Assembly (NCBI RefSeq): GCF_001273845.1
Contig: NZ_JHBW01000066.1
Location: 1-64,000, forward strand
Reading direction: 5' to 3'
Origin: Leucobacter musarum subsp. musarum
Lineage (GTDB): Bacteria > Actinomycetota > Actinomycetes > Actinomycetales > Microbacteriaceae
DNA: 64,000 bases
Positions within the stretch are counted from its first letter, which is position 1. Each line of letters starts with the position of its first letter. This document shows positions 31,243-34,383 of the stretch, one piece after another. Both the position numbers and the translations under genes were made by a program. The notes below the pieces were generated by a model that saw only the letters and a list, made by a program, of their open reading frames with translations, did no database searches and was not told the origin of the DNA.

Positions 31243-31929
31243 CTACTTGACCAGCGGAATGTTGAAGATGAAGCCGGGCTGCTCGCCACGGCGGAACCCG
31301 TCGCTCGCCTTGACCGCAGCGATGATGTGGAACACGAAGCCCACGATCTGCGCGATCCAGAGCAGCGGCACGAGCACGAGGTTCACGTAGGGAATGAACG
31401 ACGCGATGACAATCGCGAGGTACACGCCCGTGCGCAGCAGCGAGAAGTTCAGGTTCTCGCGCTGGTACAGGTAAAGGCGCTGGTCACCCTTGTCTTTGTC
31501 GACGAAGAAGAAGATGAGCGCCGGAATCCACGTGAAGAAGACCGACAGCCAGTAGTTCAGCGTGACGTTGCTGGTCGGGTCGGCGACCGGCTGTGCGTAG
31601 CCGGGCTGCGCGTAGCCGCCGGGGGGCGGCGTCTGGCCGGCCTGCGGGGCGCCGTACTGGGGCGCCGCGTACTGGGGCTGACCCGGCTGCTGCGGCTGCT
31701 GCGGCGGAACGGGAGGGGCCTGCGGAGCCTGGAACTGCGGCTGTGCGGGCTGCTGCGGCGGCACGGGGGGTGCTGCGGGCGCCTGGTGCTGCTGCACCGG
31801 GGGAGCCTGCGGCGGCTGCGGTGCAGCAGGCGGCGCCGTCGGTGCGGCGGGCGCCGCGGTTGAGGGATCGCTCGTCGGCTCGCCGCCAGTCCCCTGTCCG
31901 TGCTGACCTTCTGGTGGCAACGTCGTCAT
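31243..31929 (-). CDS. Pro/Gln-rich DUF4870-like membrane protein
   Basis: A 228-residue protein. Residues 1-115 are a Pro/Gln/Ala-rich tail with near-repeats (QAPPVPPQQP, PQYGAPQ, GYAQPGYAQP). Residues about 118-228 match the DUF4870 membrane domain: NYWLSVFFTWIPALIFFFVDKDKGDQ, then two further hydrophobic segments and an ending PGFIFNIPLVK. The proline-rich part probably lies in the cytoplasm as in similar actinobacterial proteins. ATG at 31929 follows GGAG. Function unknown. Confidence 0.85.
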   Translation of the reverse strand: MTTLPPEGQHGQGTGGEPTSDPSTAAPAAPTAPPAAPQPPQAPPVQQHQAPAAPPVPPQQPAQPQFQAPQAPPVPPQQPQQPGQPQYAAPQYGAPQAGQTPPPGGYAQPGYAQPVADPTSNVTLNYWLSVFFTWIPALIFFFVDKDKGDQRLYLYQRENLNFSLLRTGVYLAIVIASFIPYVNLVLVPLLWIAQIVGFVFHIIAAVKASDGFRRGEQPGFIFNIPLVK

Positions 31930-32017
31930 GGTGTTCTCCTTCGACCGGTCATTTTCGCTTATGAGGCTACTGCAGCGCGCGGGCGAGCGGTAGATGCTTG
32001 CGCGTGCGTGACGGGAA

Positions 32018-32057
32018 ATGAAGCGGCCCGCCTCCCGGAGGGGGCGGGCCGCTTCAT
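32018..32057. terminator. Terminator after the winged-helix regulator gene
   Basis: A perfect 15-bp stem, ATGAAGCGGCCCGCC (32018-32032) with GGCGGGCCGCTTCAT (32043-32057), loop of 10 bases, located 46 bases past the regulator stop (minus strand). Confidence 0.82.
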
Positions 32058-32103
32058 GTGATGTCGGGCGGGTCGGAGCGCGGAGCGCGACCGAGCGGAA
32101 GGC

Positions 32104-32799
32104 TCAGAACGCGTCGGGGCTCGGGGCCGCGGTGTGCAGGATCGACACGTCAGCGTGGCGGTCGAAGCGGTAGCCCGTGCCGCGCACGGTGCGCACGATG
32201 TCCTGGTACTGCGCGAGCTTCACGCGCAGGCGGCGAATGTGCACGTCAATGGTGCGCTCGCTCGGCGCCTCTTCGTCGCTGCCCTCGCTCCAGAGCGCGG
32301 TGATCAGTTCTTCACGGCTGATGGTGCGGCCCTCGCGCAGCACGAGGTACTGCAGCAGTTCGAATTCGCGGAACGTGAGTGCGGCGGTCACGTTGTCGAG
32401 CAGTACCCGCTTGCGCGAAAGGTCGAGGATCACGCCGCTCGCCGCGCGATCCTGCTCGTCGGCTTCGTGCTGCTTCTGACGTGCATGGGCGGCGGGATCG
32501 CCGAGCGCCAGACGCACCACGTCGACGTCGCGACCACCGGTGTGCTCGGGGGCGAGCGCCACGGCGGCGTACGTCTCGGCAGCCGGGGCCAACTCTGCGA
32601 CGAGCTGCTTGATGCGGGTCACGATGGCGCCGAGCTTCGGGTCGCCGTCGGCGATCTTGTCATCGGCGAGGCCGACGTAGAGCGCGAAGCCGCGCACCTC
32701 GGTGCCGTCGGGCACGCGGCGCTCGGCGGTCGGAGCCGGCGCGAGATCTGCAGCGAGGTCGGGGCGGGCGGCGCGAAGGGTCTGGGTGGTGGCGTTCAT
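32104..32799 (-). CDS. Orphan winged-helix (OmpR/PhoB-type) regulator without receiver domain
   Basis: A 231-residue protein. The C-terminal 95 residues are a Trans_reg_C winged helix (LTFREFELLQYLVLREGRTISREELITALW, then SERTIDVHIRRLRVKL and VRTVRGTGYRFDRH). The N-terminal 120 residues are not a receiver domain: no acidic pocket or phospho-Asp is visible. They hold a conserved-looking block (RGFALYVGLADDKI, LKQLV-type helix, AAVALAP) of unknown function that could sense a ligand. ATG at 32799 follows AGGAA. It is preceded by a leader of nearly 300 bases with hairpins and a Cys-ended small ORF, so translation-dependent control is likely (inference). Confidence 0.88.
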   Translation of the reverse strand: MNATTQTLRAARPDLAADLAPAPTAERRVPDGTEVRGFALYVGLADDKIADGDPKLGAIVTRIKQLVAELAPAAETYAAVALAPEHTGGRDVDVVRLALGDPAAHARQKQHEADEQDRAASGVILDLSRKRVLLDNVTAALTFREFELLQYLVLREGRTISREELITALWSEGSDEEAPSERTIDVHIRRLRVKLAQYQDIVRTVRGTGYRFDRHADVSILHTAAPSPDAF

Positions 32800-32851
32800 G
32801 ATGATGTTCCTAACGAGGCTGTCGTTCGGGTGCGACGCAGCAGTGCGCGGA

Positions 32852-32956
32852 CCCGGATGGCCGATGTCGGCCGGGAGTGCGTGGGGAGCGGAACCGGTCT
32901 CGATCAGATACGAGATACCGGAAGTTCCGCAGAGTGGTGATCTCGTTCAGATCACC
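32852..32956 (-). promoter_or_regulatory. Series of RNA hairpins in the regulator leader
   Basis: On the minus-strand transcript three structures follow the small ORF: (1) GGTGATC, 7-base loop, GATCACC (32936-32956); (2) a long hairpin whose outer arms GCGGAAC/GTTCCGC (32924-32930 and 32888-32894) enclose CGGT/ACCG and CTCG/CGAG pairs around an 8-base loop; (3) GGCCGA/TCGGCC or the alternative CCCGG/CCGGG within 32852-32875, which are mutually exclusive. This order suits an attenuator or riboregulator between small ORF and regulator gene. Confidence 0.6.
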
Positions 32957-32988
32957 GGCGTGGACGCAGAATCAGATTCGGGAAACGT

Positions 32989-33093
32989 TCACATGCACAT
33001 TCGACAGCGCATGACACCCTGACCGGCCATCATCATGCCGGTCTGCCCAATGTTCACCTCGAAGGCGGACTGGGGACGATTGGTCTCATGCAT
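32989..33093 (-). CDS. Leaderless small ORF ending in a Cys/Met-rich motif (putative leader peptide)
   Basis: ATG (complement of 33091-33093) opens a 34-codon frame: it begins MHETNRPQSAF, has three Met in a row at 20-22, and ends GVMRCRMCM before TGA. The ATG falls exactly where transcription from the predicted promoter at 33101-33130 should start, so it would be leaderless. Cys-ended leaderless upstream ORFs are known to control cysteine-linked genes by attenuation in mycobacteria; this one precedes an orphan winged-helix regulator by 189 bases of structured leader. Not similar to any protein I can name, so the coding call rests on context. Confidence 0.55.
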   Translation of the reverse strand: MHETNRPQSAFEVNIGQTGMMMAGQGVMRCRMCM

Positions 33094-33100
33094 AACCGCA

Positions 33101-33130
33101 AGTTAAGCAAACTATTGCTTCGCGTGTCAA
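33101..33130 (-). promoter_or_regulatory. Predicted promoter of the regulator leader
   Basis: Minus-strand -35 TTGACA (33125-33130), a perfect consensus, and -10 TTAACT (33101-33106) with an 18-base spacer. Seven bases separate the -10 box from the ATG at 33093. Confidence 0.6.
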
Positions 33131-33153
33131 GCGGAGCGAGGAGAAAATCTGTG

Positions 33154-33183
33154 GGGGTGCGGCGCGCCGTTGCGCGGCACCCC
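33154..33183 (-). terminator. Terminator hairpin after upp
   Basis: GGGGTGC (33154-33160) pairs with GCACCCC (33177-33183), and inner GCGC-rich bases extend the stem. Located 70 bases beyond the upp stop codon. A further 7-bp inverted repeat GACCGGC/GCCGGTC (33021-33043) falls inside the small ORF. Confidence 0.6.
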
Positions 33184-33253
33184 TGAGCCGATGGATCGCC
33201 CCCTCACGAGGGCGCCCCAGCAGGGCTCGTCGTCGAAGCTCGATGGCCGACGG

Positions 33254-33892
33254 TTAGTGGCCGACGGTGCCGTAGAGACGGTCACCGGCGTCACCGAGAC
33301 CCGGCACGATGTAGGCGTTCTCGTCGAGCCCCTGATCGAGTGCCCCGAGCACCAGGGTGACTTGGCGGTCGCCGGCGGCCTCGCGAATCGCTTCGACGCC
33401 CTCGGGAGTGCCGAGCACGCAGATCGCGGTCACGTCGTCGGCCCCGCGGTCGAACAAGAACTTGATCGCTGCCGCGAGCGACCCGCCCGTCGCGAGCATC
33501 GGATCGAGCACGAAGCACTGGCGACCGGCGAGCGAATCGGGCAGGCGTTCGGCGTACGTGGTCGGCTGCAGCGTCTCTTCGTCGCGCGCCATGCCGAGGA
33601 AGCCGACCTCGGCGGTGGGAACGAGCTTCACCATGCCCTCGAGCATGCCGAGACCGGCGCGCAGGATCGGCACGATTAGCGGCAGCGGTTCGCTCAGGCG
33701 CACACCCGTGGTCGGAGCGACCGGGGTCTCGATCTCGTGCGGCTCGACGCGCACCTCGCGCGTGGCCTCGTAGGCGAGCAGCGTCATCAGCTCTTCGATC
33801 AGCAGACGGAACGTCGGCTGCGGGGTTTTCGCGTCGCGGAGCACCGTGAGCTTGTGGGTGATGAGGGGATGATCCGCAACGAAGACTCGCAT
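33254..33892 (-). CDS. upp: Uracil phosphoribosyltransferase
   Basis: A 212-residue cytoplasmic enzyme of pyrimidine salvage that makes UMP from uracil and PRPP. It starts [20 protein letters not shown], carries [14 protein letters not shown] and the PRPP loop [16 protein letters not shown], and ends [16 protein letters not shown], all typical of bacterial Upp. The start codon lies 17 bases from the tadA start on the other strand. A -10 box TAGAAT ends six bases before the ATG, so leaderless transcription is likely. Confidence 0.97.
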
Positions 33893-33897
33893 GGTCC

Positions 33898-33904
33898 TAT
33901 TCTA
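33898..33904. promoter_or_regulatory. Overlapping divergent -10 elements for upp and tadA
   Basis: TATTCTA reads as -10 TATTCT on the plus strand (33898-33903) and TAGAAT on the minus strand (33904-33899). Each ends six bases before its own start codon (GTG at 33910, ATG at 33892), so both transcripts should be leaderless. Confidence 0.55.
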
Positions 33905-33909
33905 TTGGC

Positions 33910-34383
33910 GTGACGCTGATCCCTCCATCGCCGGCCGAGCACGCCGCCATGGGCGTCGCGCTCGAGGCCGCCGTTGACGCGGCGCGAGCCGGTGATATTC
34001 CGGTCGGCGCCGTCGTGCTGAACGCTGCCGGCGAGGTAGTGGGCGTCGGTCGCAACACGCGAGTGCACGTGCCCGACCCGACGGGGCACGCCGAAGTGCT
34101 GGCGATCCGGCAGGCCGCCGAAGCGCTCGATGATCGCGTGCTCGCCGACTGCACGCTGGTCGTGACGCTGGAGCCGTGCGTGATGTGCGCGGGCGCGATT
34201 CTCGCCGCCCGACTGCCGCGCGTCATCTTCGGGGCCTGGGACGAGAAGGCGGGCGCCGTCGGCAGCGTCTACGACCTGCTGCGCGACGGGCGCCTGCCGC
34301 ACGCGGTGCCCGAGGTCGTCGCCGGGGTGCGCGCCAACGAGGCGACGGCCCTGCTGCGCGCGTTCTTCGCCGAGCGCCGCTAG
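33910..34383 (+). CDS. tadA: tRNA adenosine(34) deaminase
   Basis: A 157-residue deaminase of the cytidine/deoxycytidylate fold that converts wobble A34 of tRNA-Arg(ACG) to inosine. The zinc site is HAE in PTGHAEVLAIRQA and PCVMC in TLEPCVMCAGAI; the C-terminal helix region includes GAVGSVYDLLRD. GTG start at 33910 with no Shine-Dalgarno, consistent with leaderless transcription from the shared -10 element. Confidence 0.95.
   Translation: MTLIPPSPAEHAAMGVALEAAVDAARAGDIPVGAVVLNAAGEVVGVGRNTRVHVPDPTGHAEVLAIRQAAEALDDRVLADCTLVVTLEPCVMCAGAILAARLPRVIFGAWDEKAGAVGSVYDLLRDGRLPHAVPEVVAGVRANEATALLRAFFAERR

Follow-up and report, generated by a model that had tools for sequence, protein, structure and literature searches.

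The 64,000-nucleotide (nt) stretch of Leucobacter musarum subsp. musarum DNA analysed here, hereafter the window (contig NZ_JHBW01000066.1, positions 1 to 64,000), carries on its minus strand a 34-codon open reading frame (ORF) flanked by upp (33254-33892) and by the gene of an orphan winged-helix regulator. A sequence-only reading of this region had described the ORF as leaderless and Cys-ended, had counted 189 bases between its stop codon and the regulator ATG (32799), and had recognized in the ORF and a series of hairpins the layout of a translation-dependent attenuator. The distance of 189 bases was exact. The encoded peptide, MHETNRPQSAFEVNIGQTGMMMAGQGVMRCRMCM, for which that reading could name no protein, gave no Pfam or NCBIfam match. 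Rfam searches returned no match at the gathering score in the whole window and none at E≤5 in 32700-33200, and open-licence full-text literature searches gave, among the papers listed, no description of this leader. We describe here the conservation of the ORF, the complementarity of its codons to the ribosome binding site (RBS) region of the regulator gene, and a reading of the region as a translational attenuator.

The regulator was sought in 54 Leucobacter genomes, and long matches were fetched from 52 of them, two fragmented genomes having given a piece or a paralogue. The ORF region was present upstream of the regulator in all 52 fetched loci, the copy in locus L022 being one base out of frame; there, a one-base deletion in a C run of the 5′ part of the ORF shifts the frame, which is either a sequencing error or a decayed copy. 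The ORF was also carried by 78 of the 80 named loci, with L210 (44 nt of upstream sequence) and L233 (variant end RNRMCM) as the exceptions. Altogether 221 loci were collected, among which species may recur between sets. Eleven had no ORF by the search rule (L022, L080, L088, L097, L145, L146, L147, L192, L209, L210 and L233); the remaining loci represent 184 distinct ORFs. Among the eleven, the ORF is there in L192 and L209 but has no −35 box that satisfies the rule, and the ORF of L080 ends, like that of L233, in RNRMCM. At least two Cys were found among the last eight residues in 181 of the 184 ORFs. ATG, promoter distance (see below) and Cys end of the proposed leaderless ORF all proved conserved.

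Analysis of the promoter showed that the −35 box begins 36 or 37 nt ahead of the ATG in 162 of the 184 distinct ORFs. The search rule itself demanded a box (TTGAC or, if absent, TTG[ACT]N) within a 26-nt window, from 46 to 20 nt upstream, so that only the clustering of its position is informative, not its presence. Under the same rule, the start codon was ATG in 177/184 ORFs. The commonest hexamers at −13 to −8 were TTTACT (36/184), TTAACT (26/184) and CATAAT (10/184). In the window, the TTGACA box and a box seven bases ahead of the ATG were where they had been placed; the −10 box, however, is not consensus, and a strict sigma-70 scan gave no match. Judged by promoter distance, transcription would start at or beside the ORF ATG, and the ORF would be leaderless. 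A palindrome, AAGCAA-TAGT-TTGCTT (33105-33120), lies between the −35 and −10 boxes. GCAA..TTGC is found in many Leucobacter promoters and was not apparent by eye in the examined half of the other copies; it is a possible genus-level operator.

Codon choice at the 3′ end of the ORF was strongly biased. The Arg codon of the C-R-M motif was CGA in 184/184 distinct ORFs, which were found by a rule without a codon filter, whereas, among the ORFs predicted in the window and in the named loci, CGA accounts for 12-13% of Arg codons. The terminal Arg codon in these peptides was CGC in 60/62. The Cys preceding CGA was encoded by TGT in 153/184, compared with a background of 15% (7% in the window). An adjacent pair of Cys codons was present in 133/184 ORFs, the window ORF having C-R-M-C instead of a run, and C30, R31 and M32 were invariant in the genus alignment. 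Ratios of synonymous to non-synonymous changes at the C end were 1.83 and 3.77 against neutral values of 0.18 and 0.17, the pairs compared not being independent, and were near neutral across the remainder of the peptide. By this comparison, the Cys-rich end is under protein-level constraint, and the rest, though little diverged, is not visibly so. The Met run, found as in-frame ATGATGATG in 153/184 ORFs, is kept without a coding signature, probably as a result of its complementarity to the start region of the regulator. In L100, an in-frame expansion has turned the Met run into four copies of a five-codon unit (MMPVL). The code of the leader is not purely Cys.

Two elements of the ORF are complementary to the regulator RBS region in the window (Table 1). 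The Met codons (E1) can form ten base pairs with E1′ (33037-33028 with 32806-32797), which span the regulator start codon, and the Cys codons (GCTGTCG, 33008-33002) within E2 can pair with E2′ (CGACAGC). The RBS analyses covered 164 distinct loci, 26 further loci having been dropped without a start that fitted the Shine-Dalgarno (SD) pattern; since AGGA was used in choosing the regulator starts in the relatives, its presence there proves nothing. CATCATC, the complement of the Met run, was found at most 60 nt from the regulator start in 89/164 loci, with 7.0 expected from dinucleotide shuffles, and in controls it occurred in 0/161 loci over the 64 nt that follow the ORF stop and in 2/158 other predicted ORFs of the named loci. 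It sits mainly at two spots, over the start codon as CATCATCATG or just upstream of the SD. CATCATCATG was present at the chosen start in 37/38 distinct Leucobacter loci and in 50/164 overall. For E2, the predicted probability that its core pairs at the RBS was 0.42 in Leucobacter (n=38), compared with 0.09 for shuffled leaders, and cognate E2 cores fitted their own leader better than other cores did, relative to shuffles (p 0.0025, relatedness ignored). RNAduplex runs on 34 hand-picked loci, 33 of which have a CATCATC site, gave pairing of E1 with that site by at least 6 in 30, of E2 with the RBS window by at least 6 in 25, and of both in 22. The optima over all 164 loci, counts with no null attached, were 80 for E1 and its site (at least 6), 133 for E2 and the RBS, and 63 for both. 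In a second family of the order, two leaders each hold three copies of GCATTC, the complement of the GAATGC at the ORF end, with the last copy between the SD and the ATG. Taken across the loci compared, complementarity of ORF codons to the RBS region recurs in about half. A similar block (GAAGGATCACACCCTCATCATTAGAGGCCCTTC or close to it) lies upstream of the regulator RBS in L098, L099, L102, L128, L133, L184, L188 and L192; the CATCAT in its loop is a potential partner of the Met codons, although four of these loci (L098, L099, L102 and L192) no longer have a Met run.

Table 1. Features of the leader and regulator gene in the window
Feature	Position	Strand	Remarks
−35 box TTGACA	33125..33130	−	first T 37 nt from ORF ATG
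−10-like box TTAACT	33101..33106	−	seven bases ahead of ATG, leaderless spacing
34-codon upstream ORF, putatively leaderless, end MRCRMCM	32989..33093	−	excess of synonymous over non-synonymous changes at C end only
Stem P1, 5′ strand GCATGAGACC	33082..33091	−	own partner strands pair better than swapped ones, in both groups
Candidate local hairpin ACCGGC-ATGATGATG-GCCGGT	33022..33042	−	Met codons in loop
E1, C ATG ATG ATG (Met20-22 codons)	33028..33037	−	perfect complement of 32797-32806
Stem P1, 3′ strand GGTGTCATGC	33009..33018	−	directly before Cys codons; one mismatch to 5′ strand here
E2, Cys-codon element GCTGTCGAATG	32998..33008	−	includes invariant CGA codon; GCTGTCG complements 32818-32824
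E2′, CGACAGC	32818..32824	−	just upstream of SD
SD-like AGGA of regulator	32808..32811	−	
E1′, CATCATCATG	32797..32806	−	includes regulator start codon
Orphan OmpR/PhoB-type winged-helix regulator	32104..32799	−	231 aa; no receiver domain found

The window leader folds better than its dinucleotide shuffles (z −3.6). The three hairpins of the sequence-only reading (32936-32956, 32888-32930 and 32852-32875) can fold, but could not be traced by eye into the alignment of the closest relatives; they look unconserved and were rejected as the switch. The pairings that recur are those of the ORF codons with the RBS region and with the 5′ end of the ORF; the attenuator layout stood as regards ORF, promoter distance and Cys end. 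The second of these pairings, stem P1, joins the first bases of the ORF (CATGAC..) to GTCATG, in the codons that immediately precede the Cys codons. Its energy was −12.3 kcal/mol over 37 distinct pairs from Leucobacter and −10.0 kcal/mol over 115 from elsewhere; the corresponding values were −5.7 and −5.6 for shuffled letters and −10.7 and −8.9 when partners were swapped (p ∼0.001 each). P1 would either compete with the RBS pairing or stack on it. In the candidate local hairpin that would hold the Met codons in its loop, an A-T/G-C exchange occurs at the sixth pair, and 572/768 cells were paired, compared with 542 ± 4.5 when permuted.

We propose, with a probability of about 0.6, that this leader of the orphan regulator acts as a translational attenuator. 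When the ORF is free of ribosomes, E1 and E2 would pair with the regulator RBS, arranged as E2′-SD-E1′, and the regulator would be off. A ribosome waiting for cysteinyl-tRNA at the Cys codons would cover E2, undo the pairing and free the RBS, and the regulator would in this way be made under cysteine shortage. E1 would be situated at the rear edge of such a stalled ribosome or slightly beyond it, and complete release might thus require more than a single ribosome or cooperation between the two helices. Whereas ORF, promoter distance, coding constraint on the Cys end, CGA invariance and, in about half of the loci, complementarity to the RBS region emerge from comparison of the sequences, we infer the direction of control, the cysteine signal, a translational rather than transcriptional output, the targets of the regulator and all expression steps.

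Several results weigh against the proposed attenuator. CATCATC is missing near the start in 75/164 loci, 69 of which have ATGATG in the ORF; some of the loci without CATCATC can use E2 alone, and others have no obvious partner. Only 8 loci lack ATGATG, 2 of which keep CATCATC, too few to link the two. Pairing of E2 with the RBS was not significant over all 164 loci (0.186 compared with 0.088 for shuffled leaders, p 0.12) or outside Leucobacter (0.115 compared with 0.088, p 0.07), and loci with TGC at the single tested E2 position showed no cognate preference (0.88 compared with 1.04). The z-scores of the duplex were modest, −0.62 for the core, −0.67 when the RBS was shuffled and −0.41 when the ORF was; a control window at −33 scored −0.48, nearly matching the core, and with contiguous helices p<0.05 was reached in 14.5% of 117 loci. 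The SD was predicted to be less paired than in shuffles (0.51 compared with 0.57), and simple masking of the SD was rejected for this reason. RNAalifold gave, for the three commonest ungapped ORF classes, no consensus local fold, with energies no better than those of column shuffles, and a consensus local fold within the ORF was also rejected. Finally, the loci are related by descent, so that p-values are optimistic and the tests overstate independence.

The codon data also bear on a different explanation, in which an arrest peptide (..GMMM..VMCCRMC) would stall the ribosome through its nascent chain, on a ligand, a metal or a redox state, with the same unmasking of the RBS. The Met/Cys-rich end and the invariance of C30, R31 and M32 in the genus alignment speak for such a peptide, and the fixed CGA codon could aid the pause. 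However, substitutions outside the C end carry no coding signature, the Met run is accounted for by its complementarity to the RBS region and some ORFs have no Met run, and we consider this explanation unlikely. In keeping with the attenuator proposed above, no intrinsic terminator was found in the window leader; the longest T run was at most 5 in 164/164 leaders, and leader length ranged from 116 to 312 nt across the 164 loci kept. A long leader with no intrinsic terminator would also suit Rho-dependent transcription attenuation, with ORF translation shielding the leader from Rho and the pairing being secondary, and Rho has been proposed for mycobacterial cys leaders (PMC1262725). This mechanism leaves the complementarity at the start-codon region unexplained, and is in our view quite unlikely. 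The conserved nucleotides might instead be DNA sites, for example operators for feedback by the regulator itself, given that E1/E1′ and E2/E2′ are inverted repeats, which DNA binding would also conserve; but both E1 and E2 are in register with the codons of the ORF that holds them, and their partner positions shift among clades yet remain near the RBS, which makes this very improbable. Least probable of all is a small functional protein, such as a metal or thiol binder, for which the Met/Cys-rich end kept across the family speaks, but not the near-neutral ratios over most of the peptide, the invariance at the nucleotide level or the position ahead of the regulator in the loci examined.

With regard to the distribution of the proposed attenuator, the ORF profile alone matched 180/299 genomes of the family (E≤0.01). 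In 20 loci from profile-negative genomes (L083-L102), the Cys end was present by pattern in 16 and was recovered through a nucleotide motif in L091 and L098; of the remaining loci, L088 is cut by the contig end and L097 has no Cys codons, which were lost. The two loci of the second family have a regulator ∼45% identical and an ORF ending in CCRMHA. A wider search of 248 genomes of the order with the profile gave strong matches beyond the family in one other family only (three genomes at E≤1e-5, one of which had supplied a profile row, and a fourth at 0.003). Farther outside the family, L145-L147 had no such ORF by the search rule. L145, from another family of the order with a regulator 40% identical, has a different short ORF upstream, ending in MMRCVRGLR. 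The L. musarum genome itself held a single copy of the ORF. When the 11-mer TGTYGAATGTG was followed elsewhere in the order, 20 places were read and rejected, none being clearly a leader, with L152 as a possible exception. In L152, from another family of the order, TGTCGAATGTGC stands directly before the stop of a short frame ending in TECRMC, either by chance or as a distant leader.

The regulator matched Trans_reg_C (PF00486, 1.8e-21), and its description as an orphan without a receiver domain was borne out: Trans_reg_C was the sole Pfam family at E≤0.01 in 25/25 members scanned, with no receiver domain, and none of the 25 NCBIfam models listed, for response regulators and related proteins, reached its cut-off. 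It was present in 289/299 genomes and 84/85 genera of the family (E≤1e-40). The closest matches among solved structures, by sequence and by fold (Foldseek), were the DNA-binding domains of GlnR and PhoB. The predicted structure (mean pLDDT, predicted local distance difference test, 70.5) is confident only in the C-terminal winged helix; the N-terminal half has low to middling confidence, and the Foldseek matches say nothing about it. The protein shares a C-terminal DNA-binding domain with GlnR and other OmpR/PhoB-type regulators and differs from OmpR/PhoB-type two-component response regulators by the receiver domain not found in it. Around the locus (31243-34383 in the window), upp was syntenic upstream in 80/110 loci, and a DUF4870 gene lay downstream in 35/110, all of them Leucobacter loci or from that genus's LEU1 bin.

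Polycysteine-encoding leaderless short ORFs of mycobacteria were reportedly described by Canestrari et al. in 2020. These ORFs are reported to act by attenuation through ribosome speed at Cys codons (PMC9031893, PMC13236596, PMC9094748). The ORF described here resembles them in its leaderless character (here by promoter distance), its Cys codons and its position upstream of a gene on the same strand. It differs in that the target is an orphan transcription regulator, in that an invariant CGA-ATG interrupts the Cys codons (CCRMC or RCRMC) and, the comparison being by description and not by sequence, in the Met-codon run complementary to the regulator start region. ORFs with Cys codons also lead the cys operons of Mycobacterium and Propionibacterium acnes and cbs of Bifidobacterium longum (PMC1262725); in both cases the actinobacterial ORF is short, Cys codons stand near the stop and no conserved terminator was found, but those leaders precede biosynthetic operons and the present one a regulator. 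The same paper describes the LEU element of actinobacterial leuA leaders, in which a run of leader codons pairs with the leuA SD box in a candidate pseudoknot, and notes, with reference to other work, that altering the leader peptide of that system had effects that did not fit classical attenuation. The likeness to the LEU element is the pairing of a leader codon run with the RBS region of the downstream gene, whereas the present peptide has no Leu run and no leuA downstream. The leader would work like the mycobacterial polycysteine attenuators and resembles the LEU element, but we class it neither with these two nor with the Cys leaders of PMC1262725.

A broader version of the attenuator, rather improbable at present, is a family-wide sulfur amino-acid switch, in which the Met and Cys codons of one leaderless ORF would serve as RNA arms and clamp the start codon of the conserved orphan regulator, a shortage of Met- or Cys-tRNA would turn on a master regulator and not a biosynthetic operon, and the fixed CGA would be a timing element. 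Returning to the attenuator as first set out, if it is true, the leader would be a likely input for a regulator that reaches almost all sampled genera of the family, and Cys-codon control would act on a transcription factor rather than on a pathway gene. The codons of a leader peptide would then be retained largely through pairing with a downstream start site, and the invariant CGA-ATG behind the Cys codon is itself an oddity, sharp and testable.
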